Shown: positions 15,899 through 59,375 of the stretch, in pieces | Layout: every line of letters starts with the position of its first letter | How positions within the stretch are numbered: position 1 is the stretch's first letter | Assembly: GCA_903813345.2 (NCBI GenBank) | Contig: CAIIXF020000003.1 | Location: forward strand, 5,417,815-5,481,814 | Source: Owenia fusiformis | Lineage: Eukaryota; Annelida; Polychaeta; Sabellida; Oweniidae | DNA length: 64,000 bases | Reading direction: 5' to 3' | Notes under the pieces: generated by a model | The model's database searches: none | The model's input: only the letters and a program-made list of their open reading frames with translations | Told to the model about the DNA's origin: nothing | Translations under genes and position numbers: made by a program

Positions 15899-15928
15899 TC
15901 ATAGTTCATCCCTTTTCTCTGCTTGCTT
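15899..15928 (-). CDS. POGLUT2: POGLUT2/3 exon 10: terminal micro-exon with RDEL
   Basis: After the good acceptor ATTTCTTTCAG the frame reads KQAEKRDEL and stops (TGA). The phase matches exon 9. RDEL is a functional variant of the KDEL retrieval tetrapeptide, and POGLUT2/POGLUT3 proteins end in KDEL-like signals, so this nine-residue coding exon completes the protein. Confidence 0.85.
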   Translation of the reverse strand, partial: KQAEKRDEL

Positions 15929-18900: not shown

Positions 18901-21900
18901 CAATGACCTTTTCAAGGTCAGAAAAGGTCTTTTTTCAACTTGCTTCAAATTAACCTTTTTTCAAAATCATCTATAAGTTATCGGAAGTTCAAATCTGACT
19001 TAAGGTTTGAGATTTGACCTTCAATGACCTTCTTAAGATTTAAGAATATAGATTTGATCATTAAATGTCATTCTAAAGGTCAAAATAGATTTGACCTTTA
19101 GTGACCTCCTCAAGGTCAAAAAGATATTTTTTACCTTGTTTCAACTAGGTGGTGACATTTTGTCATGTTAATGCCTTGTTTTACTTGTAGCTAGTGAATG
19201 TCTTTAAAATGACATAAGCCTAATTCAGTGGGACCTGTGTTAGTGAACACCTTTCTCTAGTGAACACCTATGTAAAATGAACACCCTATTTTCAGCACAT
19301 ACCTTGATTCCAATACAAATTGTCTTTCTGTATTGAAATCTACCAATAGTGAACACATTTTTTGTGGCTCTATAGATGTTCACTGTACACAGGTTTTACT
19401 TTATACAAAATACCTTTATATTTAACTTTAATTAATAAACTGATTATCTTATTGCAATTATAAATTGCTATTCATTATTTGCAGGGAACATGTAGCAAAA
19501 CAATAAGGGAGAATAGTAAGCTATTCAAGGCTTATTACTGTCTGATGTTCTATTATTAATTAATTTGATTGATTCAATTGATGGCTTTCTCAATCCATTC
19601 CAAATTGAGGACAATGATCATTTATACTGTATATCATCTGGAATGCCAACACCCTCTAATTTAGCAGATGATCTCTTAAATGCAGCATCCAAGGGCACAC
19701 AAGCCTTTAAGCAATATATTCAAGACCAATTTGTGCAGAAGGGAAAAAGTTTTCATGACCCCATAAGAGAATGAAACTGAAAACATCTGAATTCAATGCT
19801 GGAGTCAAAAAGGTGAAAAGCTCTGGAAACTAACTGATTGAGATTAGAGCTGAGCGCAATATATTTGGCCAGTTAGTCATGTTATCAGAGCAGCATAGTA
19901 TCAGTCTAAAGCGAATATTGGAATATCCCCTGAGTCCAATACCCTTGGCTCTTGGAACACCTGATGGGCTCCTGGTTAAAACAGAAAAGTCAAAATTATT
20001 ACATGATCTGGAAACATATAATATTGGACATGGACCCAAACCAGAAAAAACAATTATAGTCTATGATGGCAATGCATTGTTCCATATACTTCCTGAGCGA
20101 CCCAAAACATTTGGATTATTGGCAGAGAGGATCCTTCAGATGCTTCCTATAAGAAAGATTCAATTAAAGAACCAGAAAGAATACACAGGCGTGTCTCCAA
20201 AAAGCTAATAATAAAAGGACCCAATACCAGGATTCCTAACAATTGGAAAAAGATAAAAATGCTCCTAAACTCAAAGAAAGACAGATTCATGTGGTGAGAT
20301 ATGTACAGTGCACCAGTGATAGAACTACTGTTACACATAGAGTTGAACCTAGTCTGAGATCTTCCCACAAAGAGACAGATACAAAAATTATACTCCATGC
20401 AATTAACATGAAATGAACCTGAAAATACAGAAAAAACTATAGTTGTGCGATCCCCAGATAACGATGTTTTTGTACTTCTTGTGCACTTTCCAATCATATT
20501 CAAACTCCATTAATTTTCGACACTGGTAGTGCAGACCACATATGACTTATTAAAGGTGCAACAATTAGTGCAGGGGGGTAATTCAACGATCATCGACCAG
20601 TGTCAAAATATATTTAAGTTTGGATATTTCATCAAGTCTAACATATATTTTTATTATCTATAAAGAAACTCCCTGGATGAATATAATTTCAGCTGATATT
20701 CCTCTTGAAACGTGGTGAATCTTAAAAATCAAATATAGAAGCTTTGAACTGAATTTACACTTCTAAATTGAGAGTTTATCCATACATTTTCAGAAAATAG
20801 GTATGTCAAAGAAGATGTTAAGCCAAATATTGACCTGATAGCTCAGAAAAAAGAAAAAAATTCGAATTTTCTCTCTACAGTCCTTGTTGCTCCTTTAATG
20901 TAAAGGAAGTAGGAAATGCACTCAGTTCAGACATTTGTAAATTTGTAATGCTTTACCAGCCTTCCATTCATTCACTGGATGTGATTCCTTCAGTGCCTTT
21001 GTGAGAAGGGGGAAAGTGTCCCCCCCCGCTAAAATTACTTATGAGATCTGTAGAATTTCAAAAAGGTTTCGGCACCATTGGAGGGGTCATTAATGATCAA
21101 ACTGCTAAATGTGCTGAGAAGTTTACTTGCCAAATGTATGGAAACAAAAAGTGTTCAAATATAAATGAGCTGAGATATACCTTATTCGAGATCAAATTCC
21201 AACCAAAACCTGCTCCAAGTGTGATAACAAGCTATGAAGGCACTGACATAAGCCTCCTACCCCCATGTAAAGATTCATTACAGCAGTATCTGGCAAGGGC
21301 CAGTTATCAAACACCTTGGTGTTATTTTAGATCAAAAGCTTAATTTCAAGGAACATGTTAATGAGCTCACCAAGGAATTACAGACAATCTTAAATCCATT
21401 TAAACAATTAACTCACATTCTTCGTTCGAATCATTTGGAAACCATATATAATTCTTTTATTCTAAGTAAAATTGATTATGCTGATATAATTTACAATAGT
21501 GCTCCAAATATAGCTACCAGCAAACTTGAAAGACTGCATTATAATGCAGCTTGTCTAATTTCCGGTGCTCTGCATGGTTCAAGCACCTATAAGGTCTTGA
21601 AGTCATTAAATTGGATTACTTTGTCTGAGAGAAGAAGAAGCCATCTTTGCTCATTTCTATTTAAAAGTAGAATCAATTTATCAGCTTCATATGTCACTGA
21701 ATTATTTAATAAATACTTACATGAACCAAATAGAATTCTAAGGGCTGTCAGAGAGTATATTGTGCCTCTTAATATCAGCATTTCATTTAGAAAAACTACA
21801 TATTTTGCTGCGATTGAAGAATGGAATGGTCTGCCTAATGATTTAAGAAATTGTAATAGAATATCAACTTTTAAAGGCAAACTTAGAAAGCATTTCGGGA

Positions 21901-24900
21901 ATGAAAAATGTATAAATATAATAGCATCACTTGATATCACTAGAAAAACTGAAATTATATTTAACAGGTTAAAAGTGGACCTATTTCTAAAAAGTCAATT
22001 ATTTGCTCATCACTTTACAAACATTGACTCACCAGCCTGTAACTGTGGTCATGAAAATGAAACCCCTACTCATTTTTTCCTCAAATGCCCTCAATTTGTA
22101 AATGATAGAATCCAACTACTTATAGATCTCCATATTATTGGTTGTTTAGAAAAATTCTTAGATGCTAACTCTGTTAGCAAAGTAAATATGCTCTTGCATG
22201 GTAACAGTGAACTTAGTAATGAAGATAATACACTTCTGCTGAAAGCAACTTTAAAATTCCTACAAGCAACCAAGATTGACTAACATGTATATTACACCAT
22301 CCCATAATTTACACCACTGCACACCTTTTTTGTAAAGCATTCCAATATCAGCTTTAATTGTACTTTTTCCTTTTTGTTTATATATGAATAGTTACGAATA
22401 ATTGTAACAAATTTGTATTGCATATAAGTGTATGGTATATTTACTGCGAAGTTCAACACAAATGTTAAATTGATTAACCTTGTTGAATTTTCATTGTATG
22501 AAATTAAATGTTATAATATATGAACTTGAAATAAAAATGATTAAAAAAAAAATCAAGCACACATATGGAATCTTGCCCACATCCCCTACCCATCAATTCC
22601 CTACCCTGTGTCACATGGATGGAGGATGAAAGATGGCCATTTGGATTTCAATGGTTGTCAAATCCAGATAAAATTTTACCCCAGGTAGATGTTATCGTAT
22701 TAGATGATACTTTAGAAGATCAAAATGAAGAGGAAGTTTATGAAATACAAAGCTTTGTGGATCAAATATATTCTGGTGAATAAAAACTACATTTGTGATG
22801 ACAGAAATTCATACAATGAGTAAAATTAATATTATGACTGAGTCGTGAACTGTGTCTTAGATAATATTCAACTTCAGATTTTTAATATTCTTATATCTCG
22901 AGCCTACATAGAATAAATATTGTATTATAAATAATTCACAGGTATGTACTATATGTATACACCTAAGTGAAAATATTTTATGGTAATATATTTGATAAAA
23001 TACATGATATGTACATGTATTCATTTAATGTGACATCATGCTACTGTTTAAATCCACATGTATTAATGGCCACACCCCTTTTATAAGGGAAAGAGGGGAG
23101 AGGTAAATTGACTCTAATAGATAAAAACATCAGAGTTTGAGTTTTTTCTTTATGGGTAATATGCTGGGGACATGTTGGTGCTTTTTTCAGGAAAGTTTCA
23201 TTAATATTAAACAAAGATTGATTGAGAAATTAAAATATCAATTCCGACCAGTGTCTCTCGACCCCCCTAAATTCGATGATTCTAGGGTGAAAAAATGTTG
23301 TTTTTATAAATTAAGTTAAAATTCTTCAATTTTTTACATATGGATTTTAAATATAATTACTCTTAACAGAAACACCAAAAGAAAGAAGCATTGGTTGTTT
23401 AGTTTTTGTTTTATAGCTAAATAATAATGTACCCCCCAGAAATCTGAATTTTAGGGTCGGAAATGCAATTTTAACATCTTTCGCACCATTTGCGGCGCAT
23501 AAGACCAGTAAAATCTGTTGAGATAGACCTAAATACATAACCTAAGTCACAAGAGAAATTGTCCCGACAACACCCTGATCGAAGTGCCTCAGATCGCTAC
23601 CTATAAGAACTGTACAGATATTTGAATTCCATCCTTTATAAATAAATGAAGAGAAATAATGTAGCAATATTTACTTCTAATTTATCCTGCTATACTTATT
23701 TATTAGTCTATATGGACTGAATTAACATTCTCATCTGGCTAATTGATGAGAGCATTGCTAAGAATATACCCTAACACTTAAAGAATGAATGAAATAGTAC
23801 TATACCTTAAAGAAATCAAAGAAAGAAATATGCTTCTGAAGTTCTCCTAAATCCTCTTCATGTTTAAAGAAAAACATGTTTGTTAGTCTTGCATCAATGA
23901 GGTCTGGGTATTTGTGTGACATGCGGACAAGCTCTAGTCGCTCCTTGCGGCTGTCCCGTCCCCGCCAGAAGGCAATTTCAGTCTTATTGGCCCAGTCAGG
24001 TCCTGTGTTCGCCTGAACTGATAGCAAGTCCAATGTCACCCTGAAAACATAGTTTTTCATATTTTTATAACATTGGGCTTGAAATTGTTACAAATTACAA
24101 ACTTTCATCAGGTAATATTTTATCCTTAAAACTTTCATCAATATTAAATGTCAATTCTAATGTTTAGTCAAATATAAAAGAGTGGAAATTACAAAAGCGA
24201 TGTTGGATATATAAAGCAACCATTGTATATTATGTTTACAGAATTCAGTCATTACACCAAGAGAAAAGTTTTTACAATAGCTAGGTGGCTAAAGAATAGG
24301 AAGAGAGGATTTACAATGGTAAAATAACCTCTTACATACATATATACATAGACAATGAGCATATTGATAGAGAATGAAGTGAAATATCAAAAGTTGCAGG
24401 TAGACTGTAACAAGGACAAAAAAAGCAACAATTTTCAACATTAATCTATTTTAAAGGTTGCAAAGCCAAATATACAGAGTGTCCTTAAAATCTCTTTACA
24501 CTTTAAACAGATTATTAGAACATTATAATTGTATAGAGACTTTCTGGACACCCTTTATTACTCTGCAACACATATATTTGGTCAAAGTCCCTTTCGTTTT
24601 AAGTACATGTACAACATAAAGTGTTATTGTAAAGCATTAAACAGCAACATCCCCGACATGCAGACACCACATATAAATCTTATAGAGTCATGCATCAAGT
24701 CACTGTTCACCCCTGCTCCATCTCACTCTGTTATAGAAGAGGGGGCTTGATGCAAGAGTACGTGACATAAGTGCACAGTTAACCTTATCATAAACATTGA
24801 AAACAGAGTAGAAAGACATAGATGCCCTCAAAATATTCCACTGAAATCATGAAATAATTCCATGAGTCCTTGAATGATATAACAGTATATCAGTGCAGCA

Positions 24901-27900
24901 CAGTAGTGAAATCACTACAGCAAGCAAGTAAACACCAAATAATACAATAGCCATCATTTGCCCCCCCCCCCCCATGATAAAATAAGAAATTAGAGGAAAC
25001 TTTTAATGAGGAACAAATTAAGGATATATTTTTACTTCCAAGAAAAGTAGTCGATGAAACAAGATTATGGATTTTTCAATATAAAGTGTTACATAATATC
25101 TTAATATGTAATGAGAAATTACAAAAGATGAACATAAAAGAATCGAACAAATGCCCAAATTGTAATATGAGACATACGATCAAACACATGCTGTGGGAAT
25201 GTGAGAAAAATAATGAAATATGGACTAGATTTAGTAAATATATGGAAAAAGCTGGATATAAGATAAAAATAACAGAGAATGACATTTTGTACGGACATAA
25301 ACCAAAGGATGATGGTTATATCATTTTTAATGCAGCTATATTAATAATGAAACATACTTTATATACCAGTTTTCTTGAAAACTTAGAGCCATCATATTAT
25401 CAGTTTATTGAGCACTTCAAATTATATGTAGAAACTAAAAATGTGAATAAAAATGAAGTTTGGTCTAACTTTTATAATAAAATGTTTTGAATTAGTATTT
25501 TTGTGTGAGATAATTTAAATGCAACCCAGATGAATGATGTTGAATAAATGAGTAAATGAATGAAAATGAGTGGGTGATTGATTGATTGAGTGAGTGAGTG
25601 AATGAATGAATGAATGGATGGATACATGGATGAATGAGAATATAAAGATTATATGTGGTATGCTTCTAATAAAAAGATAATAATAATAAAAGGAGATTAA
25701 TAGCAATAATATTAAATAAAAAAATCAAAAAAAAATCAATCATTTAAAATGAATCTGCATTGAGGTATATATGGGTATATATGAATTAAATGTAATGAAA
25801 TGCATACTATATGTAATTGTAAGTGTTTACTAAATGTGAATAAATATTTTAAAAAAAAAAAAGAAAAAAAAAAAAAAAAAAAAAAAAAATGATAAAATAA
25901 TGACTAAATATAAGAAGAAAATGTATGAACCAGACAGAAAGAAATCATCATCAAATCATGAACCCAATCAAGAAATAGAGTTTGAGGAGCACAAAGCATA
26001 AGAGACAAACTATGATTCCATTCAGGAAATAAGTATGTCAAAAGTAAAGGCATATGCTAATTCCACAACATTCTAATGCACCCTATGCAGACAGAGCCTG
26101 TGGGAAATATTGGGTGCGGAGCAAATGAGCGGAGGGTGCGGAGCTAACGGTTATTTTTGAATTTAAATTTGGGATATTTCTGAAACTAAGCCGTTTTGGG
26201 ACTTCAAATATACCAAGATATGTGTATTTGACACCAAATATCAATACAATTGTGAAAATAGTAGCGCAATTCATTCTATAGCGACGCAGTGTGCCTTAAA
26301 CCTTTCCCAGACCTATATATTTTGAAATTATCCTTTTAATACTGAGTCCCCAGCATTCATAAAAAATGGTGTTCAAGGTGCACTATCTATACAAATTATT
26401 TTTGCACCTTGGAAGCCAGGCAGTATCTGTGTGATTTTATAAAAATTCAGAAATGTTTTTCAGATATGAGCCCCTCTAAATATTGGGTGCGGAGCAGCTC
26501 CATAAACGTAGCTCCGCACCCAATATTTAGAGGGGCTCATATCTGAAGAACATTTCCGAATTTTTATAAAATCACACAGATACTGCCTGGCTTCCAAGAT
26601 GCAAAAATAATTTGCATGGGTAGTGTATCTTGAACACCATTTTTTATGAATGCTGGGGACGCAGTATTAAAAGGATAGTCTCAAAATATATAGGTCTGGG
26701 AAATGTTTAAGGCATACTGCGTCGCTATAAAATGAATTGCATTACTATTTTCACAATTTTATTTATATTTGGTGTCAAATACACATATCTTGGTATATTT
26801 GAAGTCCCAAAACGGCTTAGTTTCAGAAATATCCCAATTTTAAATTCAAAAATGACCGTTAGCTCCGCACCCTCCGCTCATTTGCGCCGCACCCAATATT
26901 TCCCACAGGCTCTGTCTGCATAGGGTGTAATGTACAGTATAAATGTGACCACCTTGACTTTCACTGTAATACATCAAAATCTACAAATAAAATGTATCAT
27001 GTAGATCTTTTTCAAATCTTAAAGGAAGATCACCCGCATAGTTAAATTGCAAAATCCCAGAGATGATATAATATTAATAATGCCAAATAAATCCTAAAAT
27101 GTCCCAAAAGGTCTACGAATAAATATATTTCAATAATTTATGAAAATTCGAGGTGTTCCTATTAATTGTAATCTAGACAAGGTTCTCGTACCTACAAGAC
27201 TTTTGTAGATCTTCCTCGGAAGCTTGGTAGGTTGGCATTTCTAGTGATTCAATGTGATCACACCTATGTTTAGTAAGAAGCATCACATTAGGAACTATAT
27301 ATAAATATCTCAAATCAAGTATAACTGTTAAATTAGTAAATAGAAATAACAGCTGCAGTAATGATTTTTGTTTTGCTTGTTTTTTAAAATGTCACAACAG
27401 TCATGCTTATTCTGCTGAAATGTCACAATGGTCATGCTTATTCTGCTGAAATGTCACAATGGTCATGCTTATTCTGTTGAAATGTCACAATAGTCATGCT
27501 TACTCTGCTGAAATGTCACAATGGTCACGCTTATTCTGTTGAAATGTCACAATGGTCATGCTAATTCTGCTAAAATGTCACAATGGTCATGCTTATTCTA
27601 TTGAAATGTCACAATGGTCATGCTTATTCTGCTGAAATGTCACAATGGTCATGCTTATTCTGCTGAAATGTCACAATGGTCATGCTTATTCTGTTAAAAT
27701 ATCACAATGTTCATGCTTATTCTGTTAAAATGTCACAATGGTCATGCTTATTTTGCTGAAATGTCACAATGGTCATGCTTATTTTGCTGAAATGTCACAA
27801 TGGTCATGCTTATTCTGTTAAAATATCACAATATTCATGCTTATTCTGTTAAAATGTCACAATGGTCATGCTTATTCTGTTGAAATGTCACAATGGCCAT

Positions 27901-30900
27901 GCTTATTCTGTTTATATGTCTCAATGGTCATGCTTATTCTGTTGATATGTCTCAATGGTCATGCTTATTCTGTTGATATGTCTCAATGGTCATGCTTATT
28001 CTGTTGATATGTCACAATGGCCATGCTTATTCTGCTGAGATGTAACAATGGTCATCCTCATTCTGCTGAAATGTCACAATGGTCATGCTTATTCTGCTGA
28101 AATGTCACAATGGTCATGCTTATTCTGTTGAAATGTCACAATGGTCATGCTTATTCTGTTGAAATGTCACAATGGTCATGCTTATTCTGTTGAAATGTCA
28201 CAATGGTCATGCTTATTCTGATGAAATGTCATAATGGTCATGCTTATTCTGTTGATATGTCTCAATGGTCATGCTTATTCTATTGAAATGTCACAATGGT
28301 CATGCTTATTCTATTGACATGTCTCAATAGCCATGCTTATTCTGTTAAAATGTCACAACGGTCATGCTTCTTCTGCTGAAATGTCACAATGGTCACATTT
28401 ATTCTGCTAAAATGTCACAATGGTCATCCTTATTCTGCTGAAATGTCACAATATTCACGCTTACTCTGTTGAAATGTCACAATGGTCATGCTTATTCTGC
28501 TGAAATGTCATATGGTCATGATTATTCTGTTGAAATGTCACAAAGGTCATGCTTATTCTGCTGAAATGTCACAATGGTCATGCTTATTCTGCTGAAATGT
28601 CATCATGGTCACGCTTATTCTGTTGAAATGTCACAAAGGTCATGCTTATTCTGCTGAAATGTCATAATGGTCATGCTTATTCTGCTGAAATGTCATAATG
28701 GTCATGATTATTCTATTGAAATGTCACAATGGTCATGCTTATTCTGCTAAAATGTCACAATGGCCATCCTTATTCTGCTGAAATGTCACAATGGTCATGC
28801 GTATTCTGCTGAAATGTCACAATGGTCATGCTTATTCTATTGACATGTCTCAATAGCCCTGCTTATTCTGTTAAAATGTCACAATGGTCATGCTTATTCT
28901 GTTAATATGTCACAATAGTCATGCTTATTCTGTTGAAATGTCACAATGGTCATGCTTATTCTGCTGAAATGTCACAATGGTCATGCTTATTCTGCTGAAA
29001 TGTCATAATGGTCACGCTTATTCTGTTGATATGTCTCAATGGTCATTCTTATTCTGTTGATATGTCTTAATGGTCATGCTTATTCTGTTGATATGTCTCA
29101 ATGGTCATGCGTATTCTATTGAAATATCACAATGGCCATGCTTATTCTGCTGAAATGTCACATTGGTCATCCTTATTCTACTGAAATGTCACATTGGTCA
29201 TCCTTATTCTGCTGAAATGTCACAATGGTCACACTTATTCTGTTGAAATGTCACAATGGTCATGCTTATTCTGCTGAAATGTCATAATGGTCATGCTTAT
29301 TCTGCTGAAATGTCATAATGGTCAAGCTTATTCTGTTGAAATGTCACAATGGTCATGCTTATTCTGCTGAAATGTCATAATGGTCAAGCTTATTCTATTA
29401 AAATGTCACAATGGTCATGCTTACTCTGCTGATATATCACAATGGTCATCCTTATTCTGCTGAAATGTCACAATGGTCATGCTTATTCTATTGACATGTC
29501 TCAATAGCCATGCTTATTCTGTTAAAATGTCACAATGGTCATGCTTATTCTGTTGATTTGTCACAATGGTCATGCTTATTCTGCTGAAATGTCACAATGG
29601 TCATGCTTATTCTGTTAAAATGTCACAATGGTCATGCTTATTCTGTTGAAATGTCACAATGGTCATCCTTATTCTGCTGAAATATCACAATGGTCATGCT
29701 TACTCTGTTGAAATGTCACAATGGTCATGCTTATTCTGTTGAAATGTCACAATAGTCATGCTTACTCTGCTGAAATGTCACAATGGTCACGCTTATTCTG
29801 CTGAAATGTCACAATGGTCATGCTTATTCTGCTGAAATGTCACAATGGTCATGCTTATTCTGCTGAAATGTCACAATGGTCATGCTTATTCTGCTGAAAT
29901 GTCACAGTGGTCATGCTTATTCTGCTGAAATGTCATAATAGTCATGCTTATTATGTTGAAATGTCATATGAGTCATGCTTTTTCAGTTAAACTGTCACAA
30001 AGGTCATGCTTATTCTGTCGAAATGTCACAATGGTCATGCATATTCTGTTGAAATGTCACAATGGTCATCCTTATTGTGCTGAAATGTCACAATAGTCAT
30101 GCTTATTATGTTGAAATGTCATATGAGTCATGCTTATTATGTTAAAATGTCACAACGGTCATGCTTATTCTGCTGAAATGTTACAGTGGTCATGCTTATT
30201 CTGCTAAAATGTCACAATGATCATGCTTATTCAGCTGAAATGTCACAATGATCATCCTTATTCTGTTGAAATGTCACAATGGTCATGGTTATTCTTTTGA
30301 AATGTCACAATGATCATGCTTATTCTGCTGAAATGTCACAATGATCATGGTCATGGTTATTCTTTAGAAATGTCACAATGATCAAGCTTATTCTGTTGAA
30401 ATGTCACAATGGTCATGCTTATTCTGTTAAAATGTCACAATGGTTATGTTTATTATGTTAAAATGTCACAATGCTCATGGTTATTCTTTAGAAATGTCAC
30501 AATGATCAAGCTTATTCTGTTGAAATGTCCCAATGGTCATGCTTATTCTGTTGAAATGTCACAATGGTCATGCTTATTCTGTTAAAATGTCACAATGGTC
30601 ATGCTTATTCTGTTGAAATGTCACAATGGTCATGCTTATTCTTTTGAAATGTCACAATGGTCATGCTTATTCTGCTGAAATGTCACAATGGTCATGCTTA
30701 TTCTGTTGAAATGTCACAATGGTCATGCTTATTCTGTTGAAATGTCACAATGGTCATGCTTATTCTGTTGAAATGTCACAATGGTCATGCTTATTCTGCT
30801 GAAATGTCACAATGGTCATGCTGTGAGTACCGTAATCCAACATGAAATTCTAAAATTCTGAACACCACTTTGCACACCACATGTGGTCATGTTTAAGACT

Positions 30901-33900
30901 TGGAGTATAATGGTGGTCATGTTTAAGACCTGGAGTAGAATGGTGGTCATGTTTAAGACTTGGAGTATAATGGTGGTCATGTTTAAGACCTGGAGTATAA
31001 TGGTGGTCACGTTTAAGACCTGGAGTATAATGGTGGTCATGTTTAAGACCTGGAGTATAATGGTGGTCATGTTTAAGACTTGGAGTATAATGGTGGTCAT
31101 GTTTAAGACGTGGAGTATAATGGTGGTCATGTTTAAGACCTGGAGTATAATGGTGGTCATGTTTAAAACCTGGAGTATAATGGTGGTCATGTTTAAGACC
31201 TGGAGTATAATGGTGGTCATGTTTAAAACCTGGAGTATAATGGTGGTCATGTTTAAGACGTGGAGTAGAATGGTGGTCATGTTTAAGACCTGGAGTAGAA
31301 TGGTGGTCATGTTTAAGACCTGGAATAGAATGGTGGTCATGTTTAAGACCTGGAGTATAATGCTGGTCATGTTTAAGACCTGGAGTATAATGGTGGTCAT
31401 GTTTAAGACCTGGAGTAGAATGGTGGTCATGTTTAAGACCTGGAGTAGAATGGTGGTCATGTTTAAGACCTGGAGTATAATGGTGGTCATGTTTAAGACC
31501 TGGAGTAGAATGGTGGTCACGTTTAAGACCTGAAGTAGAATGGTGGTCATGTTTAAGACCTGGAGTATTATGCTGGTAATGTTTAAGACCTGGAGTATAA
31601 TGGTGGTCATGTTTAAGACCTGGAGTATAATGCTGGTCATGTTTAAGACCTGGAGTATAATGGTGGTCAAGTTTAAGACCTGGAGTATAATGCTGGTCAT
31701 GTTTAAGACCTGGAGTATAATGCTGGTCATGTTTAAGACCTGAAATATAATGGTGGTCATGTTTAAGACCTGGAGTATAATGGTGGTCATGTGTAAGACC
31801 TGGAGTATAATGGTGGTCATGTTTAAGACTTGGAGTGTAATGTTGGTCATGTTTAAGACCTGGAGTATAATGGTGGTCATATTTAAGACCTGGAGTATAA
31901 TGGTTGTCATGTTTAAGACCTGGAGTATAATGGTTGTCATGTTTAAGACTTGGAGTATAATGGTGGTCATGTTTAAGACTTGGAGTAGAATGGTTGTCAT
32001 GTTTTAAGACTTGGAGTATAATGGTGGTCATGTTTAAGACCTGGAGTAGAATGGTGGTCATGTTTTAGACTTGGAGTATAATGTTGGTCATGTTTAAGAC
32101 CTGGAGTATAATGGTGGTCATATTTAAGACCTGGAGTATAATGGTTGTCATGTTTAAGACCTGGGGTATAATGGTGGTCATATTTAAGACCTGGAGTATA
32201 ATGGCTGTCATGTTTAAGACTTGGAGTATAATGGTGGTCATGTTTAAGACTTGGAGTAGAATGGTGGTCATGTTTAAGACCTGGAGTGTAATTGTGGCCA
32301 TGTTTAAGACCTGGAGTATAATGGTGGTCATGTTTTCATGTGGTGCAAGAGGAATCACCATCAGAAATTAAGACAATTGCCACATTCTAAAATTGAATGT
32401 TCACTGTTTTAATTTGTACACAAATCCAGTAAAACAGGTTAACTGGTTTACACTAACACAGCTGCTGCTACTGCTACTATAACTCAATCTTATTGAAAAT
32501 CTGCCAATGTGACAACTTGGACCTTTGTTCCAAACTTGGATCCCATTTTTCATACAAGATGACCCATAATGTTTAAAATTGTTATAAAGTTCTTCCCATC
32601 GTGGCTGCTGCTGACACCTTGTCATTTCAAGCAGATTAGTGACTAGGTATATTTCCAATATTAGTGTTCATGGTTGATTAATAAAAAATGATAACTGACA
32701 ATTTCTCCAAAGCTTGATTAGTTTAAATGAATGCACTATGCATATGATTCCACTTGATAGCTGCAATATACACTAACATTATGCCATGCAAACCGAAGCA
32801 TTGCTAAACATTATTACTAGATTTTGATGATTTGTTCCGGATCACCGTTGAAATATTGTTAATATCAACTTGCTGCATTATATGCCATTGGGTCAATGTA
32901 AGCAAGAGTTTCAATTTTGCGCCAGTCTCCTACATCACCATGCCATAAACATTCAAAGTCACCTGTTTAACATTTCAAGTACAGATTCCATGACATCATA
33001 GGTTGGCATGACAATATCATGAGTGTCATCAGATCCACACCATGAAAAGATTGGCACTGGAGACTTTCCAGAGTTGACTTTATCCAAAGGCCAATCTCCG
33101 AGGTTTAAAATGAACTCCACATTACGTACTTTGACCTTCAAGACATGATATGAATGCTTTGGAGAGTGAGTAAAATATTATGATGACAAAATGAATAACA
33201 CAAAAATCTCTTAAAACTAATAGGTTTGCCATCTAACCTGAATTTAAACACACATATATTTATTATTCTAGTATTGGGATCTACTGTGATGTCTGCAACA
33301 TTTTGTCAGTTTACATTTATATATTCTTTATATATTTATATATATAGTCTCATGACTTCTGGGACACCATGCATTCAAATAGAAATGTGTAAATTTAATT
33401 TTTAAGATTCCATGATGTTTCATATATAAAAAATCCTATTTGTCTTGTCAATTAATGATTGTAATGACAAAAAGTAGATAACTGATATGGATCTGTTTTC
33501 ATATCCATGAAACAAAGCAAGAGCACTAAGCCATCTCTAAACATACAGCCATTTAATGTTGACCATTGCTCATGCCCAAGTCCTCATTTATTATTCCTAT
33601 CTGAAATCAGCTGCACATCTAACATTGCCTTAAATATATCCATGATCATGACTATTCTACTTTTTCTCCTTGAACAGACAGCTATATCCTCAACATTTTT
33701 GCATAATTTAGGGTTTTTTAAAATTTTCCTTGCAGAATGCACTGAAATAAATGACCCCTATGACATTTTCCAAAATAATCCATTTTCTTTTATTGTTAAA
33801 ACATGACCACCCTGACATTTCCCCTTAAAACATGACCACCCTGACATTTTACATTAAAACATGACCACCCTGACATTTCATATTAAAACATGACCACCCT

Positions 33901-36900
33901 GACATTTTAAATTAAAATATGACCACCCTGACATTTTACATTAAAACATGACCACCCTGACATTCCATATTAAAACATGACCACCCTGACATTTCACATT
34001 AAAATATGACCACCCTGACATTTCATATTAAAACATGACCACCCTGACATTTTACATTAAAACATGACCACCCTGACATTTTACATTAAAACATGACCAC
34101 CCTGACATTCCATATTAAAACATGACCACCCTGACATTTTACATAAACATGACCACCCTGACATTTTACATTAAAACATGACCACCCTGACATTTCATAT
34201 TAAAACATGACCACCCTGACATTTCATATTAAAACATGACCACCCTGACATTTTAAATTAAAATATGACCACCCTGACATTTCTCATCAAAACATGACCA
34301 CCCTGACATCTGTCAATAAAATATGACCACCCATTTTACATTCATACCTGCCCATGGTCTCTAATGTGGATTCTGTGACATCATAAGTTGGCATGATAAT
34401 GTCCTTCGATCCTTCAGAGCCGCACCAAGAAAATATCGGGAGGGGATTATTTGCTTCACTGCGTTTCTCTAGTGGCCAATCGCCCAGATTTACGAATAAT
34501 TCAATGTCAGGGATTTCTACCTAAAATTACCCACAAAGAAGATATCATAGAGGTCATTGTCTGTTTAGTTTTGCAGAACACTGAGAGAGCAACTACAAGG
34601 AATGGAATAAAATGTATAAGGTTATGACTTTCTCTAAACTAAGTATTAAATAATAAATCTAAAATGAATCAATCCTCCGGCTAAACTTTCTATTGTCACG
34701 CATATTCAGCACTATTTTTTATAAAAACTGCAAATAGTAAATAATTTTTGTTTAGTTTATTTCTTGTTTGTTCCTCTCTTCTTAGTGCAATAGGTCATGT
34801 CTACGTTTTATAGCTAGGATTGGCATGGAATGGAACAGATTTCAGAATTTGAAACTTTTGGACTTGATTGCTTGCTTGCTTATTTAATAATAATTAAAGG
34901 AATGAAATATATAAAATCAAATTATGAATCATCGATTTAGATTACTTATTGCATATAAAACAACTTTAACAAGTGAACTGTATTTATTGATTTCATTTGC
35001 TAGAAGTTCTGAAAGTCTCTTTCTCTGTAAAGTGGAATACAGAGAGGCAATTCATTATTCCTAAGAAATACTGGGCTGAATTATCAAGCAAAGAGGAGGA
35101 GGTCATGTCGTCAATGTTATTCAATTGCCACCCCGTACAGTTTTGTTTTTTTAAATGCCACCCTATACACTTATTTTTCAATTGCCACCCCATTTAGTTA
35201 TTTTCTATACTATTGCCACCCTATTCAGTTATTTTTCAATTGTCACTCTTTATAGCTGTTATTCAAATTTCAAACATCAACATAAAGTATAAGATGAGAA
35301 AGGAAGAAAATGTTTAAGGAAAAATAAAAGGAATAAGGTATCCTTCATCAAGACAAAAAGAGCAACAACTAAAAACAACAAAGTCTACAAATAACTATGA
35401 GCTAAATCTATGCCTTATATCTCTGGTCACATATACAGGGTGTTCACTAAGTAATGACACTAGGTCTCTAATTTTGTCAAATTTTAAGGAATCTTGCTTA
35501 AATTGTCAGCATGTCTTAATTGTGAGTTAATTTGAAAAGTTTTAAAGCTCGTGACCTCTAAATAATGAAATAATGGTTGCCATAGTAACTTGGTGACTGG
35601 TGTGTTGACACAGACATCAATTCTACTCAATTTTGATGAAATAATGTATAATATGATGGGGTTTTACATCATTTTGAGCTATGCATTCTCAATTAAATTT
35701 ATGCCAGTTGGTTATTCAAAATATGTCCTGTATAGTGGTTACATGCATAGTATGGTTCATTCATAGTATGACATCATTATAGTCCTAGTTCAGAAGATCT
35801 CCGGGATGTCTGTGGTCTCCATGAGTCTAAGTTGGAAAGTCTGCCAAAGTTGAAAACGTCATCGGATTCGGAAAACAGGTTTAGTGGAAATGGGAAACTT
35901 GCTGCAACAAGCAACATGCGTGTTATACCCTGTACTTCAAAGTAGTCCATAAAGATTGGAAAGAATGCAGAGTTGTCTATGATATAAAAATGTAGACCTT
36001 GCTAATCATTTACCAAATGAAATTCAGATTGAACTACATTTCCATGTTATTGGACTCATAAAGAGTCAGCAGTTTCATTCTGATGAGAAAATCGTATAAG
36101 GGCAGCCAGATTGGAATAAAATCAAATAAGATTGGCCAAACAAATGTTTTCCAAGAAAGGGTGGCTAAACAACAAAAATGCATAAAAGCAGAAACAAATT
36201 ACTTTTAAAGGGATATTATATCCACTGGGCATGGACATGGAGTGCCGGATATAAATATTGTATCATTTGCAGAAGTGATATGCTCAGGATTAAATATTTC
36301 TTCATTAATGTTAAATTAGACGTAATATGTGTTGTGTCAAGGACCATGTTACCAAATCAAAATGTATATGATAAAATTAACTATTTTTGGTCTTGAGACA
36401 TGAAATTTGGTATGTGCACTCATTATTACATGCCAGATAATGTGTGCAAAATCAAGAAAGATTGGTTAAAAACTGTAGAAATAGGAGACCTAGTGTCATC
36501 ACTTAGTGAACACCCTGTACATACAAATCCATACTTTTGCTATTACTATGAAAATTCAAGAATTTATTGTCATCTGCTATTTAATATATATTTATTGCTA
36601 TTTGTACATATAGTGAGTGACATTCAGTCATGTTTTATACACATAGTGAGTGACATTCAGTCATGTTCAGTATATGTAGTGAGTGACATTCAGTCATGTT
36701 TTGTACATGTGGTAAGTGGCATTTAGTCACATTTTTAGTGAGTGGTATGTAGTCATGTTCAGTATTTGTAGTGAGTGACATTCAGTCATATTTTGTACAT
36801 ATAGTGAGTGATAGTGAGTGGTATGTAGTCATGTCCAGTATATGTAGTGAGTGATATTCATTCATATTTTATACATGTAGTAAGTGGCATTTAGTCACAT

Positions 36901-39900
36901 TTTTAGTGAGTGGTATGTAGTCATGTTCAGTATTTGTAGTGAGTGACATTCAGTCATATTTTATACATGTAGTAAGTGGCATTTAGTCACATTTTTAGTG
37001 AGTGGTATGTAGTCATGTTCAGTATTTGTAGTGAGTGACATTCAGTCATATTTTGTACATATAGTGAGTGATAGTGAGTGGTATGTAGTCATGTCCAGTA
37101 TATGTAGTGAGTGATATTCAGTCATATTTTGTACATATAGTGAGTGATAGTGAGTGGTATGTAGTCATGTCCAGTATATGTAGTGAGTGATATTCAGTCA
37201 TATTTTGTACATATAGTGAGTGATAGTGAGTGGTATGTAGTCATGTCCAGGATATGTAGTGATTGACATTCAGTCATGTTTTATTCATGTAGTAAGTGGC
37301 ATTTAGTCACATTTTGTAGTGAGTGACATGCAGTCATGTTTTGTATGTGGAAGTCATGTTCAGTATATTTAGTGACATTTAGTCATGTTTGTACATACAA
37401 GTATAGGGAATGACATAAAATCATGTTTTGTACATTTAGTGAGTGACATGTAGTCATATTTTGTATATATTTAGTGACATGTAGTTAAGCTCAATACAAA
37501 TTTTGAGTGACATGTAGGCATGTTCTGTACATGTTATGAGTAACATGAAGTGATGTTCTGTTCGTGTAGGGAGTGACATTTAGTCATGTTCTGTACATGT
37601 TATGAGTAACATGAAGTGATGTTCTGTTCGTGTAGGGAGTGACATTTAGTCATGTTCTGTACATGTTATGAGTAACATGAAGTGATGTTCTGTTCATGTA
37701 GGGAGTGACATGTAGTCATGTTCTGTACATGTTATAAGTAACATGAAGTGATGTTCTGTTCGTGTAGGGAGTGACATGTAGTCATGTTCTGTACATGTTA
37801 TAAGTAACATGAAGTGATGTTCTGTTCGTGTAGGGAGTGACATGTAGTCATGTTCTGTACATGTTATAAGTAACATGAAGTGATGTTCTGTTCGTGTAGG
37901 GAGTGACATGTAGTCATGTTCTGTACATGTTATAAGTAACATGAAGTGATGTTCTGTTCGTGTAGGGAGTGACATGTAGTCATGTTCTGTACATGTTATA
38001 AGTAACATGAAGTGATGTTCTGTTCGTGTAGGGAGTGACATTTAGTCATGTTTTGTGCATGTCATCATGTTTTGTTCTGTTCATGAAAAAAGTAAACATC
38101 AAAAGTGTCAGAAATTAGTTTAAAGCAAAGGGAGGATAGACATGGACAGAGAGATATCTCAGGCATAGATTAAGTATGGTGAAATCAACAGGTTCCAACC
38201 TCCCCATTGTTTCCATGATTGATTTCCCAAGATCCCATGTTGGGTGAACAATATCTCGAGAAGATGATGACCCACACCAAGAAAAGATTGGTATAGGGTT
38301 TTCTGATATTTTACGCTTTTCCAAAGGCCAGTCTCCAAGATTTATAAAAAACTCCACATCAGGTAGTTTAACCTAAAATGAATTATGTGCATGCAGTTGA
38401 CCAGAAGCATGTATATTTCAGAAACATCAAAATGTTCCAATCAATTCTCTTTCATCACTAGTCGGCTAACATATATATATATTACATCTAATACTGTTTC
38501 CAAAGGGTATTTACAATGGCCTGGAGAGATTACATTCAATGGCCATAGGAAAGATTTATTCAATGGCCTTAGAAGGTATATTCAATGGCCTCGGAAAGAT
38601 CAATGGCCCTTGACAAGATTTATTCAATGGCCTTAAGGGTATTCAATTGGACTGGGAAGGCATATGCAATGGACAGAAGGTATATTCAATGGCCTTATGG
38701 ATATTCGGTAGCAATGGGTAAGATTTATTCAATAGCATTGGAGTCATGTACATGTAAAAAAAACATTGTCCTTAAAATGATTGCATTTATGGAGGTCAAC
38801 ATGGAAAATGTATGATGATTGGTTAATTGCCCCATCAATTTCAGTCTCTTTAACTTAATTATCATTCAGTGCCTTCAGTATATAGTTTTCCCAAAAGGAA
38901 TGGATGAATCTAAAATATACACCTGTATAGTGTATAGCCTTGCCCAAGTTAGTCTCTTACTTATCTTGATTTCTAAGCCACGTGCTTATCTGACTCAATG
39001 TTTATGTCGGTAAATTTGACCAATCAACCACGGCCCTGCAGTGTTAGCTCATTATTATGCACGGTCAAGACAAGTACACTTTTTCACAAACAAATCCTCC
39101 AGCAAATGCATTGAATGCATCATGAAAATACAAATATTTCATCAGATAAATATCAATCAGAGTTTAGTGGATGTTGGAGTATCGATGGGATACCGAGAGG
39201 TGAGAAGATTTCAACAAGAAACGTTGAAACGATCGCTGAAATTGTCGAACATAGCTACTTGTCCGAGATTCAGATCAACCAATGAATTGGATCAACAACT
39301 ACACGGACTTAGGTCTTCATCCATTTTCATCGCAAATCCAGTTTTAAATCAACATTTGATCGCATGATTTAATTTCTATTAATGGGTGCTTACATTCCAA
39401 TGTACATTTAATTACATAATATATTGTAACACCGAAGAAATACTCAAACAGATCATTGAATTTCAAGTCGTAGACGGGTAGTTTTTTATTTTTATTTGGG
39501 TAAACCTGAAAACGTTTTGATTGGTCAATCAGCCTGAAGTAACACTTTGTGTCCACACGATCTTGTCAATCAATAAGGTTTCGCGATACCCCTGACAGCG
39601 TAAAAAAAAAACTGACTTGGGCAAGGCTAACCTGTATATGATCTTACACAATTTAGTCTGGTGAATATATGCCTGTTATTTCATTCCTTGCTGATTTCAC
39701 TGCTTTCCACTCTATAACCCACTGTAATAATAATGTTCAGTTAATTCCATAGATATTTCTCATATTAATGACCCAAAACAAGAGGGAAACTTACCTTTCG
39801 CACTAGAGATAACAGTGTGGCGTCACTAAACATTTTGAATCCAACATGCTCCCCATAGGTTTTTCTATACACCTAGAAAAAAATGTTTCATCATGTATCA

Positions 39901-42900
39901 GTTTTTCTTATACATGTGAGGCTGTTAAATGTGGGGCTGGTACATTTCAACCCTATTAAAAAATGGCAAGATTAGAACTTTTTATACAGTTGCAGAATGG
40001 CAGCTAAATTTGCATTTCAGAAATAGCGAAGAATTCAAGTTTCATCAGGAATTATCACAATAGTGTTACTATTATCAGTTTAAGCTGTTTCAGGTTTTAA
40101 AATCAATAGGGATATGAGGATTAGATTTAATGATAGGCAGTTTTCATTGGTCCAAAAAATGGTGATGGAAGGACATATGGATGAGTAAGTGATTCCATAG
40201 GCTCATCATCATAGTACATAAACCGCTTCCTAGTCAACTCGTACCCAAGACAACTGGTACCCAAGACAACTGGTACCCAAGACAACTGGTACCCAAGACA
40301 ACTCATACCCAAGATTATTTTCAGTATTATGGGTGCATATTAGGGAGAAAATTTAGTTTGTAATGCTTTCATGTTATAATGTGAATCAAATAAGCCTCGA
40401 TATTTTTTGGAATTTAGAAGACATTTTTTCTCAATGGATCAGTAAAGCATTTTTTTATTAAATAAAAGAAGTGCTTGAAGCGCTTGTTCTAAACATTATT
40501 TTGTCAAACACAGTAAATAAATATAATTACAACATTAGATCTGACACTTGTTCCAAACACTCATAAACATACAATATTTTGAAAAATGATATTATGAATA
40601 TGTGGAATAAACATATGTCTCTTCACTCGGACATGCTGAATCTGTGACCAATATAAAATAATAGTCAATATAAATTGACACTCAGCTCAAAATGTCACAA
40701 AATTAAATCAATTTTTCCGAAAATTCTTCTTCAAACTTTAAACTATTCTGAACAGTATGTTACAAGTATAATATGTATATCTATTCACATTCCCAGTCCA
40801 ATGCTTGATTCAAAACAAAATATATACTTGGGTACGAGTTGTCTTTGGTACGAGTTGACCAGTTACCCATAAACCCATAGATAAATGGATGTACCTTATT
40901 ATTTATAATTGCATAATGAACAAGACTGTGGCTCCCTCTTTGGTTGAACCTCTCAACTGCCTCCTTGGAAACAATATCCATGTCAATATTGGAGAATATG
41001 GAGAGGTCATTTTTGATTTGTTTGTAGGACTTCTGACATTTCATTGTTGAATACCATTCTTTGAAATCTGGAACTGGGCAGAAGCACTGCTCGTGGTAAA
41101 CATTTCCTGAAAATAAAAATAAATGTTATGTAAAAACAGGACATACATCTATCCTGTGGTTCTCCTGAGAAATCTGCCAGCCTTGAGTTGCTTTTTTACA
41201 TAATCGTCAACTCAGACGCTTCCTTCCACCTACTATAAACACTAATGAATCAAATGGTCTCTCATGAATGTTGACGTCAGATGTATGTCTAATACACATG
41301 GACGGAAATCCTATTTACGTATTTACTAATAGCTCCATGTATAACTTCATTTAGAAAACAAAATAATCAAATACATGTACATGTAATATTGCGTAACAAA
41401 TCTCAATGAACAAAATATTACTCTCTTAATTGTCTTTTCATGAATCTAAAATAAGTTACATGAGATATATTTCATAACACGATTCACTAAGATGTCATAG
41501 TGACAATGTTTTGAAACAATAGCGTGAGAAATGGTCATATAAGCAAGGCATGAAATGAATGAATGCCAAAAACAATAAGACTCCACAATTACATTTTCAA
41601 TCAATGTTTTGCCAAAAAATGACGAAACAATGACATTCAAGGTGACATGCTAGAGTGTATAGTAAGAATTGTTTGGACTGAATAACAATGAAAATCAGAG
41701 GAATTACCAAGGAAACTATGTTATTGGCAGTGTTCTTGTACTTGTACCATATATCTGATCAATAATTACAGATCATAAATAAAGATTCTTTGAATGCAAT
41801 GAAATGGACAAAGTCAGTATGAGATTCCAGACAAGGGTATCTGATGACATACAAAAATCATTTGACTCGTATGCCAGAAACTAAATATCTCCACAAAGGA
41901 CAACATTTAAGACCAGAGTAGCGATATTCTACACTCTAAAATCCTGAATTTCTCACTTCATTTCTTTCACATTTTACATTTGTCCTACAAAAACACTATG
42001 AGTAGCTTTGCAACTTTTGTATATTTCCCTTTACAACTTAAAAAGGAGGAATGACGCAACTTCTACTTGGCAGAGATATGACACAAGCAAACTCCTTCGC
42101 ACAAAAGTTTTAATTACATGTACATGTATTCAGATGATTTCTCAAAAAAGGAAATGCCCATCTCGACATTATGTGATATTAATGGTATTATGTAATATTA
42201 TCAGATTTATGCTTTCCCAATTAATTCTTCCCATTTCTTGCCTACATGCTTTAAAATGTAATGCTGATGACGTATGAATTATGTATATGATGACATGGAT
42301 AAATACAGATTTCTGATTTGTTAAATAATTTACTTTATTGTAAAGAACAACAATAAAAGATGCTGGCTGAGAAGTATCCATGACCAGATCGACAAATCAT
42401 TGTTAGTAGAAAGTGAAAACATTGGAACTTGAAGAACAGAACTGGAACATAGAAAGAAAACACTGAACTTTCCATTTATACAGAACTAGAATATCCTAGA
42501 ATATCAACTTGAAACATACTTCAAATACAATTTCAGAATATATTTATTCTAAACTCATAGAAAATATATCAGATTCTTCAGAGACGAGAATAAATTAAAG
42601 GAACAAAAAGTTGATTTTTAATAAAGAACCATCAAGAACAATGATTTCACATGTTCAGCTCAGCAGAGCCTTATATGGTAAGTTTACTTTTGCTCTTCAT
42701 GAAAAATTTGGTGGGACAGCTTTCAGTGGAGTCTAGTCATCAGAATTTTTAACAGGCATTTCAAATTCAAAATACATGTACTGGCACAAGATGATAACAT
42801 CACAGCAATTCTCATGTGCGATAAAAATAGTATTATTATGAATTAAATACCAGTACATTTTTGCATGTCAAATAATGAACTTAGCTTATCATTCTCTCGG

Positions 42901-45900: not shown

Positions 45901-48900
45901 GGCATTTTAAATAATGTCATCATTTTGGACAGTCAGGCATGAACATCACTTCAAAGAGCAAAATCCCAGCATGGCTAATCAGGTCTAGCAATAGCATTCA
46001 TGAATGTTTGAATTGAATCCCATCCCCTTAACAGGTTCCATAGAAACACAGTCAGATCACAGTCCGTAAGAAGCTGGTTCCTAATCCAAAATGGCTGCCT
46101 TATATCTTAACTTTGGAGTAAGATTTAGGAAAGAATTAGATTATAGAAGAGATTTATTTAGTTTTCTTAGCAATTCCAAATTTCTCTTACAATTTTAGCA
46201 TTTTTGGTAGCTAGTCGTTCATCTTAACAACCACACATGTCACATAATGAACTTAATTTTGATGTCTTTCAGGAACAAGAGATGCCTGCGGGCCTGTTGG
46301 GCTTACTGCAGTGGATGGCAGAACCTAAACATTGATACAAGATTGGTCTCCAGTAAATCAGACTGTGTGAGACTATGCTTTCTGAAGGCCTGCATGAAAG
46401 GAAACAGAAACCTCTAACCAAGAAATAAGAAATCATCTGTCATTCTACAGTATTGAAACTACATGTACTGACCCATACATATCATGCATGATTGTGCAGG
46501 GGAAGTCTGAGCTATATGGGTCAGTGCAATGTAAAACAATAAAGAATGATTTAATGAGAATCATATATCTGCATATTCATTGAACATTATTATTACAAAT
46601 CAACTTCATTTTAGTTTTCTGGTGTTTTAAAGAGGTTGGTGACTTTTGATGATTGTAAATGCTTGCCTCAATGATTTCTATAATTTCTGAGAGTCTGAAC
46701 TGAGTGAAACAAGAATCACTTACCAGTACTATGAATTAACAACCAGTTAGCTCATTTCTACTGGTAAAGTACTGATCAGTAAAAGTTGAACTTTCAATAT
46801 ATGGGTTTTCTTTTCCATTTATGAAAATTAATTAGTTGAAGTTTGGTTTATACTGCTGGTTGTATTTTGTTGCTAATAGTTGCTTATTTATTTAGTGATA
46901 AATATGACCAAATTAGAGTCTCTCAGTTTATGTGGAGGGTGAAAAAAATAGATATATCATGCCACAAAATAATTGCTTCTGTTTTCTGCACTTTTTAGAT
47001 TAACAAATAATGTGAAGAATTAGTGAATGATCCTTGTTTTAAATGAGTTAAGGGCATGACATGAACAGGACCTGATTCTGAAGCTAAAGAAAACACCATT
47101 TCCACCACATTAAGTAACAACTGTCACCATTAAAAAATAATAGTTATTAATTCTCCTTTTCGCGGTTCGCTCTTTGAATCAGAACGTTCACAAATATGCA
47201 CTGAAAAAGCACTCAAAAAGGACAAAATTTGATTGGTCAATATTTTCCCACTATGCATTTCGCGTAGCTATTTGCGTGACACGAAAGTTCTAAATCAAAC
47301 TAATTACTCAATTTTGTTTTTAAAACCCGCACGCTAAATAAAACAATGACACCATCGTAAGTATTCTTCTTTGTCATAGCTTTAATGGTCAGTATACTGA
47401 GTTTAATCAATAAAAGATTGTACAATGAACAACAAAATTCGGAAACGAGTACTATAGATTTGCTTTCGGACCACTGAACAGATTGACCTAGATAATAGCG
47501 ATGCGTCTTCTTTGGTCTACTGCTCAGTTGTTTGTGGGTTTTCAACGTAACTCTATAATGTAATTTGAAGATGAATACTTTTATTCAGTTGTTGCATCGA
47601 TGTCGCAGTTTGTAGTGTGGTAAGATTGGCATGAAAGTATTGAAAGTCGAATTGAATTGTTTTTTCCAATATGGCGACTAGTCTACTGATCACGTGACCT
47701 TCTCTTCCGGAATATTTTCTCACTTTTCAATCATCGTTTTCACCACGCTATGAATTAATACAATGAAAAAAATAGTTGTTATATTAAGATTAATGAGAGA
47801 TCAATCGTTTCTAATAATTCTTTCTGAACTCTCGTACAGAAAAATGAACAAATATATCGTTTGAAAAATAGGTGTGAAAATCCCCATGTTAAACCTATGA
47901 GGGAAAATAAGGAAGTATAAATTTGTTCCTCCGCGAACTGCATCATGGGAAATATTTTGCCCTTATAAGGAAAGACTTTCGCATCTTCTCTTTTGAAGAG
48001 GGAACAACGATTTCGAGAATTACATAGCAATTTTCAGTGAGAGAAATAAACATTATATCTTTAATGTATTTTATCCTGGGAGATTGCGGAGTCTAGCCTT
48101 TAAAATTAAAATCCTACTAACTTTTGAAATTCCCACTGTGTTAGGTAAGCATAACATTGCGAAGAACCAAAAATGTTATGTTACCTACATTTTTATGGAT
48201 GATTAATTAAGGTTGATTATGACTTACTTTAAAATTCCTATTATTTGTATGATATAGCAATACCTTAAAGGTGGACATTTTGAAATGAACCAAAATCAGG
48301 AAAATGACACGATATTTGGAATCTACATTAAACTGGCTTTGATTTGAGTATAATAAAGCTTTACTTCTGAAAGATTTCAAAATTAACTCAAATTCCTGTT
48401 TTCCCGACCCCTTTATACCCGACCCCTTTATAAGCCCCTGGGAGTCAATGAAATCTATATGAAATAGATAGATGTTGGGAATAGAGTAACAAAATTTCAA
48501 TCAAAAATATTCATTACCTTGGTTCGAAATGAAAAACAAGATTTTTCGCAAAAAATTCTCACTATTTTTAAAAGATTTTTACGTAAAACTATTTAGCAAT
48601 ATACATCTTTCCACTAAATATGAAAAAAAATCTGTATACTAGTATTCAAGTCATCTTCACAAATACAAATAAATAGGGGTAAATGGATAGTAAATGAATA
48701 GAGTGATCTGTACAAAAACCAGATAATGGCTCTGAAATGATTTGAACATTTACCTTTGAGATAAAATGGTGATTCGCCAACATGTTGGCCATTGTATGTT
48801 ATGGTGATGGTTAGGTAGGCAAGGGACTTCCACATCTTGAAGCGGACAATGTAACTACCATCATGCCTGTCTAAAACTTGCGTCCAGATTCTTACGTAGT

Positions 48901-58781: not shown

Positions 58782-59375
58782 TTATTTGTGCTTAGTACAG
58801 CTGCGTTTACTACCTGCCGGCAAAATGTTTTTATTGCTGACTTCACAATGGTGTTTCGGAAAATTCACGGTATATTGGGATTCACCATATGGCAGTTCCT
58901 GTTCTTCATCCCAAAACTGTTCCTCATCATCTTGGGACAACTCATGAAAGTTAGATTCTGAAGAAGTATCATCTTCCTCCCCAGATAGATCATCTTCCTC
59001 ACCAGAGAGATGATCGGTAACTGGGACAGTCTCTTGTTCTCCATCTTCATGGTTATTTCTGTTATTGATAATAGCATCATCTTCCAATTCCTCATCTGAA
59101 CTGGAATTGTCAATTTCACTATCTGACCCATGCAAATGAATGGGCAACCCCTCGGCTTTCCCATCTTGTATAGGTTTTTCAATATCAGCTTGACTGGTAT
59201 TGAAGATTCTTCGACTGATAAACTTCTTCAGCCTATCATAATTCACATGGATCACTTTGTTGCCTAAGTCCACCTTATATGTGACATCAGATGTGCGCCT
59301 TAAGATCTTAAATGGCCCCTTCCATGGATTATGAAGCTTCCCATCTTTCCCACGTGCAGTTGGGTCAAACAGCAT
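58782..59375 (-). other. GPF module and acidic C-terminal tail of pol (fossil element)
   Basis: WKGPFKILRRTSDVTYKVDL is the GPY/F module that follows the integrase core in many Ty3/Gypsy elements. It is followed by an Asp/Glu/Ser-rich tail with tandem LSGEEDD. I see no chromodomain. Confidence 0.75.

Follow-up and report, generated by a model that had tools for sequence, protein, structure and literature searches.

The analysed window is a stretch of 64,000 nucleotides (64 kb) from the annelid Owenia fusiformis (assembly GCA_903813345.2, contig CAIIXF020000003.1, positions 5,417,815 to 5,481,814). It contains a complete gene for an O-glucosyltransferase of the POGLUT2/3 type on the minus strand, from the start codon through the stop codon. 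One segment of the catalytic domain is encoded three times, by tandem exons referred to as E1, E2 and E3. The coding exons were assembled from splice-flanked open stretches, based on sequence and homology.

The first coding exon (x1, 52951–53135, minus strand like all exons of this gene) carries the ATG, a signal-peptide-like N terminus and the start of the filamin domain. The remainder of the filamin domain (48754–48959), the start of the GT90 domain (40895–41106) and a constant exon ending in phase 0 (39795–39872) follow. The alternative exons are E1 (38200–38372), E2 (34348–34520) and E3 (32963–33135). Downstream of them, a constant exon entered in phase 2 (23806–24040) encodes the equivalents of R310, S312, R316, N336, F338 and H353 of human POGLUT2. 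It is followed by three further constant exons (17503–17712, 17061–17150 and 16403–16504) and the last coding exon (15899–15928), which reads KQAEKRDEL and stop. Every junction of the gene model was GT-AG and kept the frame. With any single copy of E1, E2 or E3, the message has 1521 nt and encodes 506 residues with RDEL at the end, a signal of the endoplasmic reticulum (ER) retention type. RDEL works like KDEL.

All three isoforms were matched by the Pfam families Glyco_transf_90 (PF05686; E 5.8e-109, 8.3e-109 and 6.9e-105) and Filamin (PF00630; E 2e-14). The E2 isoform was searched against solved structures, and its best relative was human POGLUT2 (9w47; E 7.5e-197, residues 20–497), compared with E 2.1e-38 for POGLUT1 (5l0r) and E 1.1e-29 for Rumi (5f84). 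In the aligned part, the isoforms with E1, E2 and E3 were identical to human POGLUT2 at 284, 286 and 279 of 474 positions. The catalytic D238 and the uridine diphosphate (UDP)-binding R310, R316 and R376 of the human enzyme were all present in the alignment to 9w47. Among Notch-modifying enzymes, the filamin domain is found in POGLUT2/3 alone (PMC13084666), and therefore the gene was placed with POGLUT2/3. This agrees with the identity proposed in the first-pass annotation, a model's reading of the letters. Human POGLUT2 shares the filamin and GT90 layout, a KDEL-type tail, the catalytic base and the UDP-binding arginines (PMC13084666). The difference is that the human protein chain has the segment once, whereas the Owenia gene encodes it three times in tandem. 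That vertebrate POGLUT2/3 have the segment once, as stated in the first-pass annotation, was seen for this one human protein chain.

E1, E2 and E3 each comprise 173 nt, that is 57 open codons plus 2 nt, with AG before and GT after, and all are phase 0 in and phase 2 out. The layout given in the first-pass annotation was exact in these respects, including the coordinates. The motif DI(V/I)xPT(Y/W)D and the one further motif it had named were found in all three copies. The flanking exons (39872–39795 and 24040–23806), between which the cluster had been placed, were both single copy by tblastn in the 64 kb (next best E 0.96 and 0.50). The same search found no fourth copy of the cluster exon in the 64 kb (next E 0.036, 0.66 and 0.18 for E1, E2 and E3). 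Copy-to-copy matches reached E 1.3e-20 to 3.7e-26. For the three pairs of copies, 36, 30 and 31 of 57 residues and 103, 106 and 107 of 171 nucleotides were identical. From the residue identity and the tblastn E-values, the likeness of the copies is therefore not due to chance. Splice-site strength was considered as a hallmark of alternative exons and dropped, as the three copies did not differ clearly from the constant exons in this respect.

The reading frame limits how the copies can be combined. All five non-single combinations (skipping, three pairs and all three copies) shifted the frame and led to a stop on translation. When the cluster was skipped altogether, the stop came 14 residues later. 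For E1+E2 and for E1+E2+E3 it was in the codon directly following the E1-E2 junction codon, and for E1+E3 and E2+E3 it was 9 residues on. Since joined or skipped copies shift the frame and stop within 14 residues, a full-length enzyme needs one copy per message. The first-pass annotation had gone further and stated that one copy per mRNA is forced. This stands for the full-length protein and is too strong for splicing: the frame does not bind the spliceosome to a single copy. Human frame-locked exon clusters likewise consist of similar exons in tandem, and including two of them together shifts the frame; in one comparison set of frame-incompatible clusters, 18 showed reads that join the exons (PMC5740500).

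According to the alignment to 9w47, the cluster corresponds to residues 225–281 of human POGLUT2 and two bases of codon 282. In the human enzyme, D238 is the catalytic base, and W239, Y270 and D271 are contacts to the epidermal growth factor (EGF) repeat (PMC13084666). The boundary between two Rossmann-like domains lies at 253/254, and residues 278–288 form one of three cleft-shaping loops. The human EGF contacts were assigned by docking and backed by mutations; Y270A is listed among the mutants whose dissociation constant (Kd) was raised 20- to 75-fold (PMC13084666). The first-pass annotation had equated the Asp of the GDWP motif with the catalytic base of POGLUT1, which is Asp133 (PMC5543122). 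The alignment confirmed this, as the residue aligns with D238 in all copies.

D238, W239 and D271 are retained in E1, E2 and E3. E1 has Trp at the position of Y270 and His at M267; in E2 and E3 these residues are Tyr and Met. Trp is also found at the position of Y270 in the alignments of POGLUT1 and Rumi. The POGLUT1 residue is W164 if Asp133 fixes the numbering, which places WEGG at 167–170, in agreement with the WXGG given at 167–170 in PMC7803782. Outside the cluster, the EGF contacts H207, F210, F213, N336, F338 and H353 are the same as in human POGLUT2, and Q187 aligns with His. Y270 is thus the sole named contact that splicing would alter.

At positions where the other two copies and human POGLUT2 agree, E1 and E2 each kept 25 of 28 and E3 kept 25 of 34. 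The departures were M267H, Y270W and L277M in E1, and K226E, V230I and V266I in E2. The nine departures of E3, the most divergent copy, include P228R, D229N and changes at T279, M280 and G281. The position of D229 is the Asp of a DXD-like motif (PMC7803782), and the changes at 279–281 fall at the start of the cleft-shaping loop.

The divergence between the copies was largely synonymous. Differences at first, second and third codon positions were 18/9/41, 21/13/31 and 18/11/35 for the three pairs. The proportion of synonymous differences (pS) was 0.98, 0.64 and 0.76, and that of nonsynonymous differences (pN) was 0.24, 0.31 and 0.27. Synonymous sites are near saturation between the copies. The DNA similarity between the three loci ended at the exon borders: in 600 nt on either side of the copies, residual intron similarity consisted only of 11–19 nt matches (E 0.81).

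In neutral simulations with equal divergence (20,000 runs), both copies stayed open in 1.1, 1.3 and 2.3% of the runs, and the observed residue identity was attained in 0, 0.025 and 0.05%. In codon maximum likelihood (ML) analysis, the model with all three omega values at 1 was rejected with twice the log-likelihood difference at 70.3 for the three copies and at 76.3 after outgroup residues were added. Joint neutrality of the three copies was rejected with p 1.9e-16. Constraint on the copies taken together, which the first-pass annotation had named as a point to check, was thus found with both approaches. Taken together, the copies look like an old and constrained cluster.

The copies were compared with human POGLUT2 for their age. 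E1, E2 and E3 matched it at 40, 42 and 35 of 58 positions, and the neighbouring constant exons at 19/26 and 55/78. Counted over 57 residues, the matches to human POGLUT2 were 39, 41 and 34, so that E2 is the nearest of the three, and the matches to the nearest sister copy were at most 36, 36 and 31. Every copy is therefore nearer to human POGLUT2 than to its sisters, which suggests that the duplications date back roughly to the divergence from the vertebrate line. Resampling (2000 resamples) gave this result in 0.82, 0.94 and 0.73 for the individual copies and in 0.61 for all three together. A four-point test of the duplication timing favoured no branching order (bootstrap 0.26/0.45/0.29).

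In our view, these results are best read as three mutually exclusive exons that form an old cluster in a gene for a POGLUT2/3-type O-glucosyltransferase, a reading to which we would give a probability of about 0.7 from the sequence evidence. Each mature mRNA would take one of the three copies, and with it the catalytic Asp and the Rossmann-like domain boundary. Joined or skipped transcripts would frameshift and stop, and would presumably be removed by nonsense-mediated mRNA decay (NMD). The catalytic base is kept in all isoforms, and all would probably be active. The isoforms would be expected to differ at the acceptor cleft, with E2 as the standard form. In E1, the EGF-contacting Tyr would be exchanged for the Trp of POGLUT1 and Rumi, and E3 would be altered in the Asp of the DXD-like motif and where the cleft-shaping loop starts. 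A likely use would be to adjust, by tissue or by stage, the choice of EGF repeats for glucosylation and the efficiency of their modification.

Several points weigh against mutually exclusive use. The copies are 1.2 and 3.7 kb apart, and with this spacing steric exclusion cannot account for exclusivity. The donor of E1 is poor (GAG/GTTGGA, 5/9 of the consensus), although the constant exon at 24040–23806 likewise has 5/9. With the DXD-like Asp lost, the E3 isoform may be a poor enzyme. Predicted differences in specificity between the isoforms depend on a docked human complex. When single copies were tested in the three-copy codon ML, neutrality was rejected for E2 (p 0.0099), whereas it was not rejected for E1 (p 0.98) and E3 (p 0.15).

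The poor E1 donor, the fit of a neutral E1 or E3 branch in the three-sequence model and the 9 of 34 departures in E3 would also be expected if only one or two copies were used and the remainder were recent or decaying duplicates, open by accident. We consider this unlikely, though it is the rival that survives best. The share of kept positions is high in all three copies, and D238, W239, D271 and the AG/GT borders were kept in each of them despite near-saturated synonymous sites. A six-row codon ML, in which the three copies were joined by residues from human POGLUT2, POGLUT1 and Rumi, rejected single-copy neutrality for E1 (p 0.013), E2 (p 0.0003) and E3 (p 0.021); these values are rough, since several branch lengths reached their bounds and the residue-only rows were given an implausible omega of 1.7, and this roughness tells against the mutually exclusive cluster.

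A second rival takes up the early stops. One copy would be productive and its partners would act as poison exons, with a second copy adding an early stop and lowering the enzyme level through NMD. The stop right past the junction codon in E1+E2, the stops 9 residues later in E1+E3 and E2+E3, and the joined-exon reads in human clusters (PMC5740500) fit this. However, a catalytic motif would be superfluous in a poison exon, and D238, W239 and D271 are kept in all copies. The likeness of the copies to human POGLUT2 is at or above the gene average, which is best explained by protein function. Such a role therefore appears improbable, clearly more so than that of decaying duplicates.

The cluster introns are rich in tandem arrays. 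Array C (33796–34332; 29-nt unit, 18.6 copies) begins 15 nt past the E2 donor. D1 (27387–30822; 31-nt unit, 110.7 copies) and D2 (30883–32335; 30-nt unit, 48.4 copies) are located past E3, ahead of the downstream constant exon, and arrays B (36601–38062), weakly complementary to array C, lie in the E1-E2 intron. For the array comparison, 12 spans were picked from two array listings, one of them with 23 overlapping rows, with array B split in two and the array at 2669–2970 and weaker rows excluded. Of the 10,845 bp in these spans, 6,911 were within the cluster introns (25% of the window).

The unit of array C shows complementarity to those of D1 and D2. The 19-mer CATGACCANNNTGACATTT (at most 1 mismatch) occurred 81 times in gene sense in D1 and 18 times in antisense in C; elsewhere in the window it was found 0 times (0.02 expected). 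Among 66 span pairs (blastn, E 1e-3), the only opposite-sense matches were C-D1 and C-D2. The B1-B2 match was same-sense, these being parts of one array. Duplex energies were calculated for the first 400 nt of each array with 40 shuffles each. They were −389 kcal/mol for C:D1 and −259 kcal/mol for C:D2, compared with about −165 (s.d. 9) for shuffled sequences (z −25.6 and −10.6, values that overstate the significance because shuffling destroys the tandem structure). Array C against other array stretches gave z +0.7 (3146–3946) and +0.6 (10087–10458), and two further controls with array C gave z +2.2 and −1.2. A three-way model, in which C would pair with either B or D, was also considered. The C:B part was dropped, with z −2.2 and −5.1 compared with −3.3 for a non-array stretch (B3_mid). 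As a separate observation, the opposite orientation of the arrays flanking E3 (33796–34332 with 27387–32335) may favour an E3 circular RNA or editing of double-stranded RNA.

C:D pairing is predicted to enclose E3 as a hairpin and to draw the E2 donor closer to the downstream exon. In some genes, exclusive exon choice works via pairing of a docking site with selectors (PMC6071210), and those clusters likewise have complementary intron elements around the cluster exons. The differences are that the elements here are large tandem arrays and that E3 alone is clearly enclosed. This comparison covered the arrays; no systematic search for short conserved selectors was made. Pairing of C with D1/D2 may help E2 to reach the downstream exon past E3, an idea that we hold weakly and find doubtful.

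The same arrays could also mean that E3 is mainly excised or circularised, with the flanking complementary repeats driving skipping or back-splicing and not isoform choice. The duplex energies, the exclusive opposite-sense matches and the motif counts speak for such an effect. On the other hand, z is inflated by the shuffling, although the two array controls were near zero; tandem arrays change quickly in evolution and these may be young, and the pairing is a prediction. E3 still seems constrained as a coding sequence, and we judge this explanation to be slightly less probable again than poison partners. Assemblies often err in tandem arrays. The region is rich in them, but a merger of exons from several genes or haplotypes into one locus is very improbable, given that the copies differ at 37–40% of nucleotides, far above haplotype level, and that single-copy flanking exons and a complete gene surround them.

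A bolder extension of the mutually exclusive cluster can be formulated. One gene would provide three POGLUTs with different EGF-repeat codes, E2 being the standard form, E1 having Trp in its acceptor pocket as POGLUT1 does and E3 a remodelled cleft. The triplication would be about as old as the vertebrate split, vertebrates would perhaps have given up the switch and relied on gene copies instead, and pairing between complementary minisatellites in the introns would determine the choice of E3. Judged from the sequence, the combination as a whole is rather unlikely.

Splice switching of acceptor choice in glycosyltransferases is already known from two Drosophila enzymes. PGANT9A/B is a parallel in that one O-glycosyltransferase gene has a tissue-specific alternative exon (8A/8B), which changes acceptor preference via a loop governing active-site access (PMC6115407). 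It differs in being an N-acetylgalactosamine (GalNAc)-transferase with two forms and an alternative lectin-domain segment, and its catalytic residues are not swapped. In PGANT5A/B, a catalytic-domain stretch (398–457) is alternative and one pocket residue sets the acceptor specificity (PMC12776162). This enzyme also belongs to another family and has two forms, and the words "exon" and "mutually exclusive" do not occur in the main text of PMC12776162. The POGLUT family, the three-way layout and the location of the switch at the catalytic base seem to be new. A search of the POGLUT2/KDELC literature, at the level of open-licence titles and abstract openings, found no report of alternative exons among the papers listed, in line with the first-pass annotation, which knew of none in this family. 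POGLUT or KDELC was not named in the main texts of two papers on human exon clusters, one of them PMC5740500.

If real, the cluster would be the first splice switch known in the POGLUT family, as far as these titles and abstract openings show, and the switch would sit on the catalytic base and acceptor contacts. O-glucosylation of EGF repeats modulates Notch and proteins of the extracellular matrix (PMC13084666). POGLUT2/3 enzymes act on the EGF-repeat motif C3-X-N-T-X-G-S-F-X-C4. The isoforms would provide natural three-way variants for testing which residues set EGF-repeat selectivity, a question counted as open in a 2021 review (PMC7803782). Moreover, it would suggest that an invertebrate can diversify a glycosyltransferase through exons, the vertebrate counterpart being two genes, POGLUT2 and POGLUT3.

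Further features were observed in the window. A 5.8-kb stretch at 17817–23610 has inverted arms (321 nt at 96%, then 193 nt at 83% and 81 nt at 75%), occupies most of the intron between exons 24040–23806 and 17712–17503, and has the appearance of an inserted element flanked by long terminal inverted repeats. An open stretch on the plus strand (24981–25487), within the intron that follows E3, matched zf-RVT, a zinc-binding domain in reverse transcriptase (E 3.9e-07). At 59303–63309 (minus strand), a retroelement pol-type frame (reverse transcriptase, RNase H and integrase) was found together with a gag-protease-type frame. A tandem array at 3013–5964 (43-nt unit, 67 copies) had no blastn match to the cluster arrays at E 1e-3. 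Finally, two exon-like open stretches at 11911–12829 on the plus strand matched the CAP (cysteine-rich secretory protein) family (E 2.4e-08 and 0.0021, the second below the cut-off) and represent a neighbouring gene on the opposite strand.

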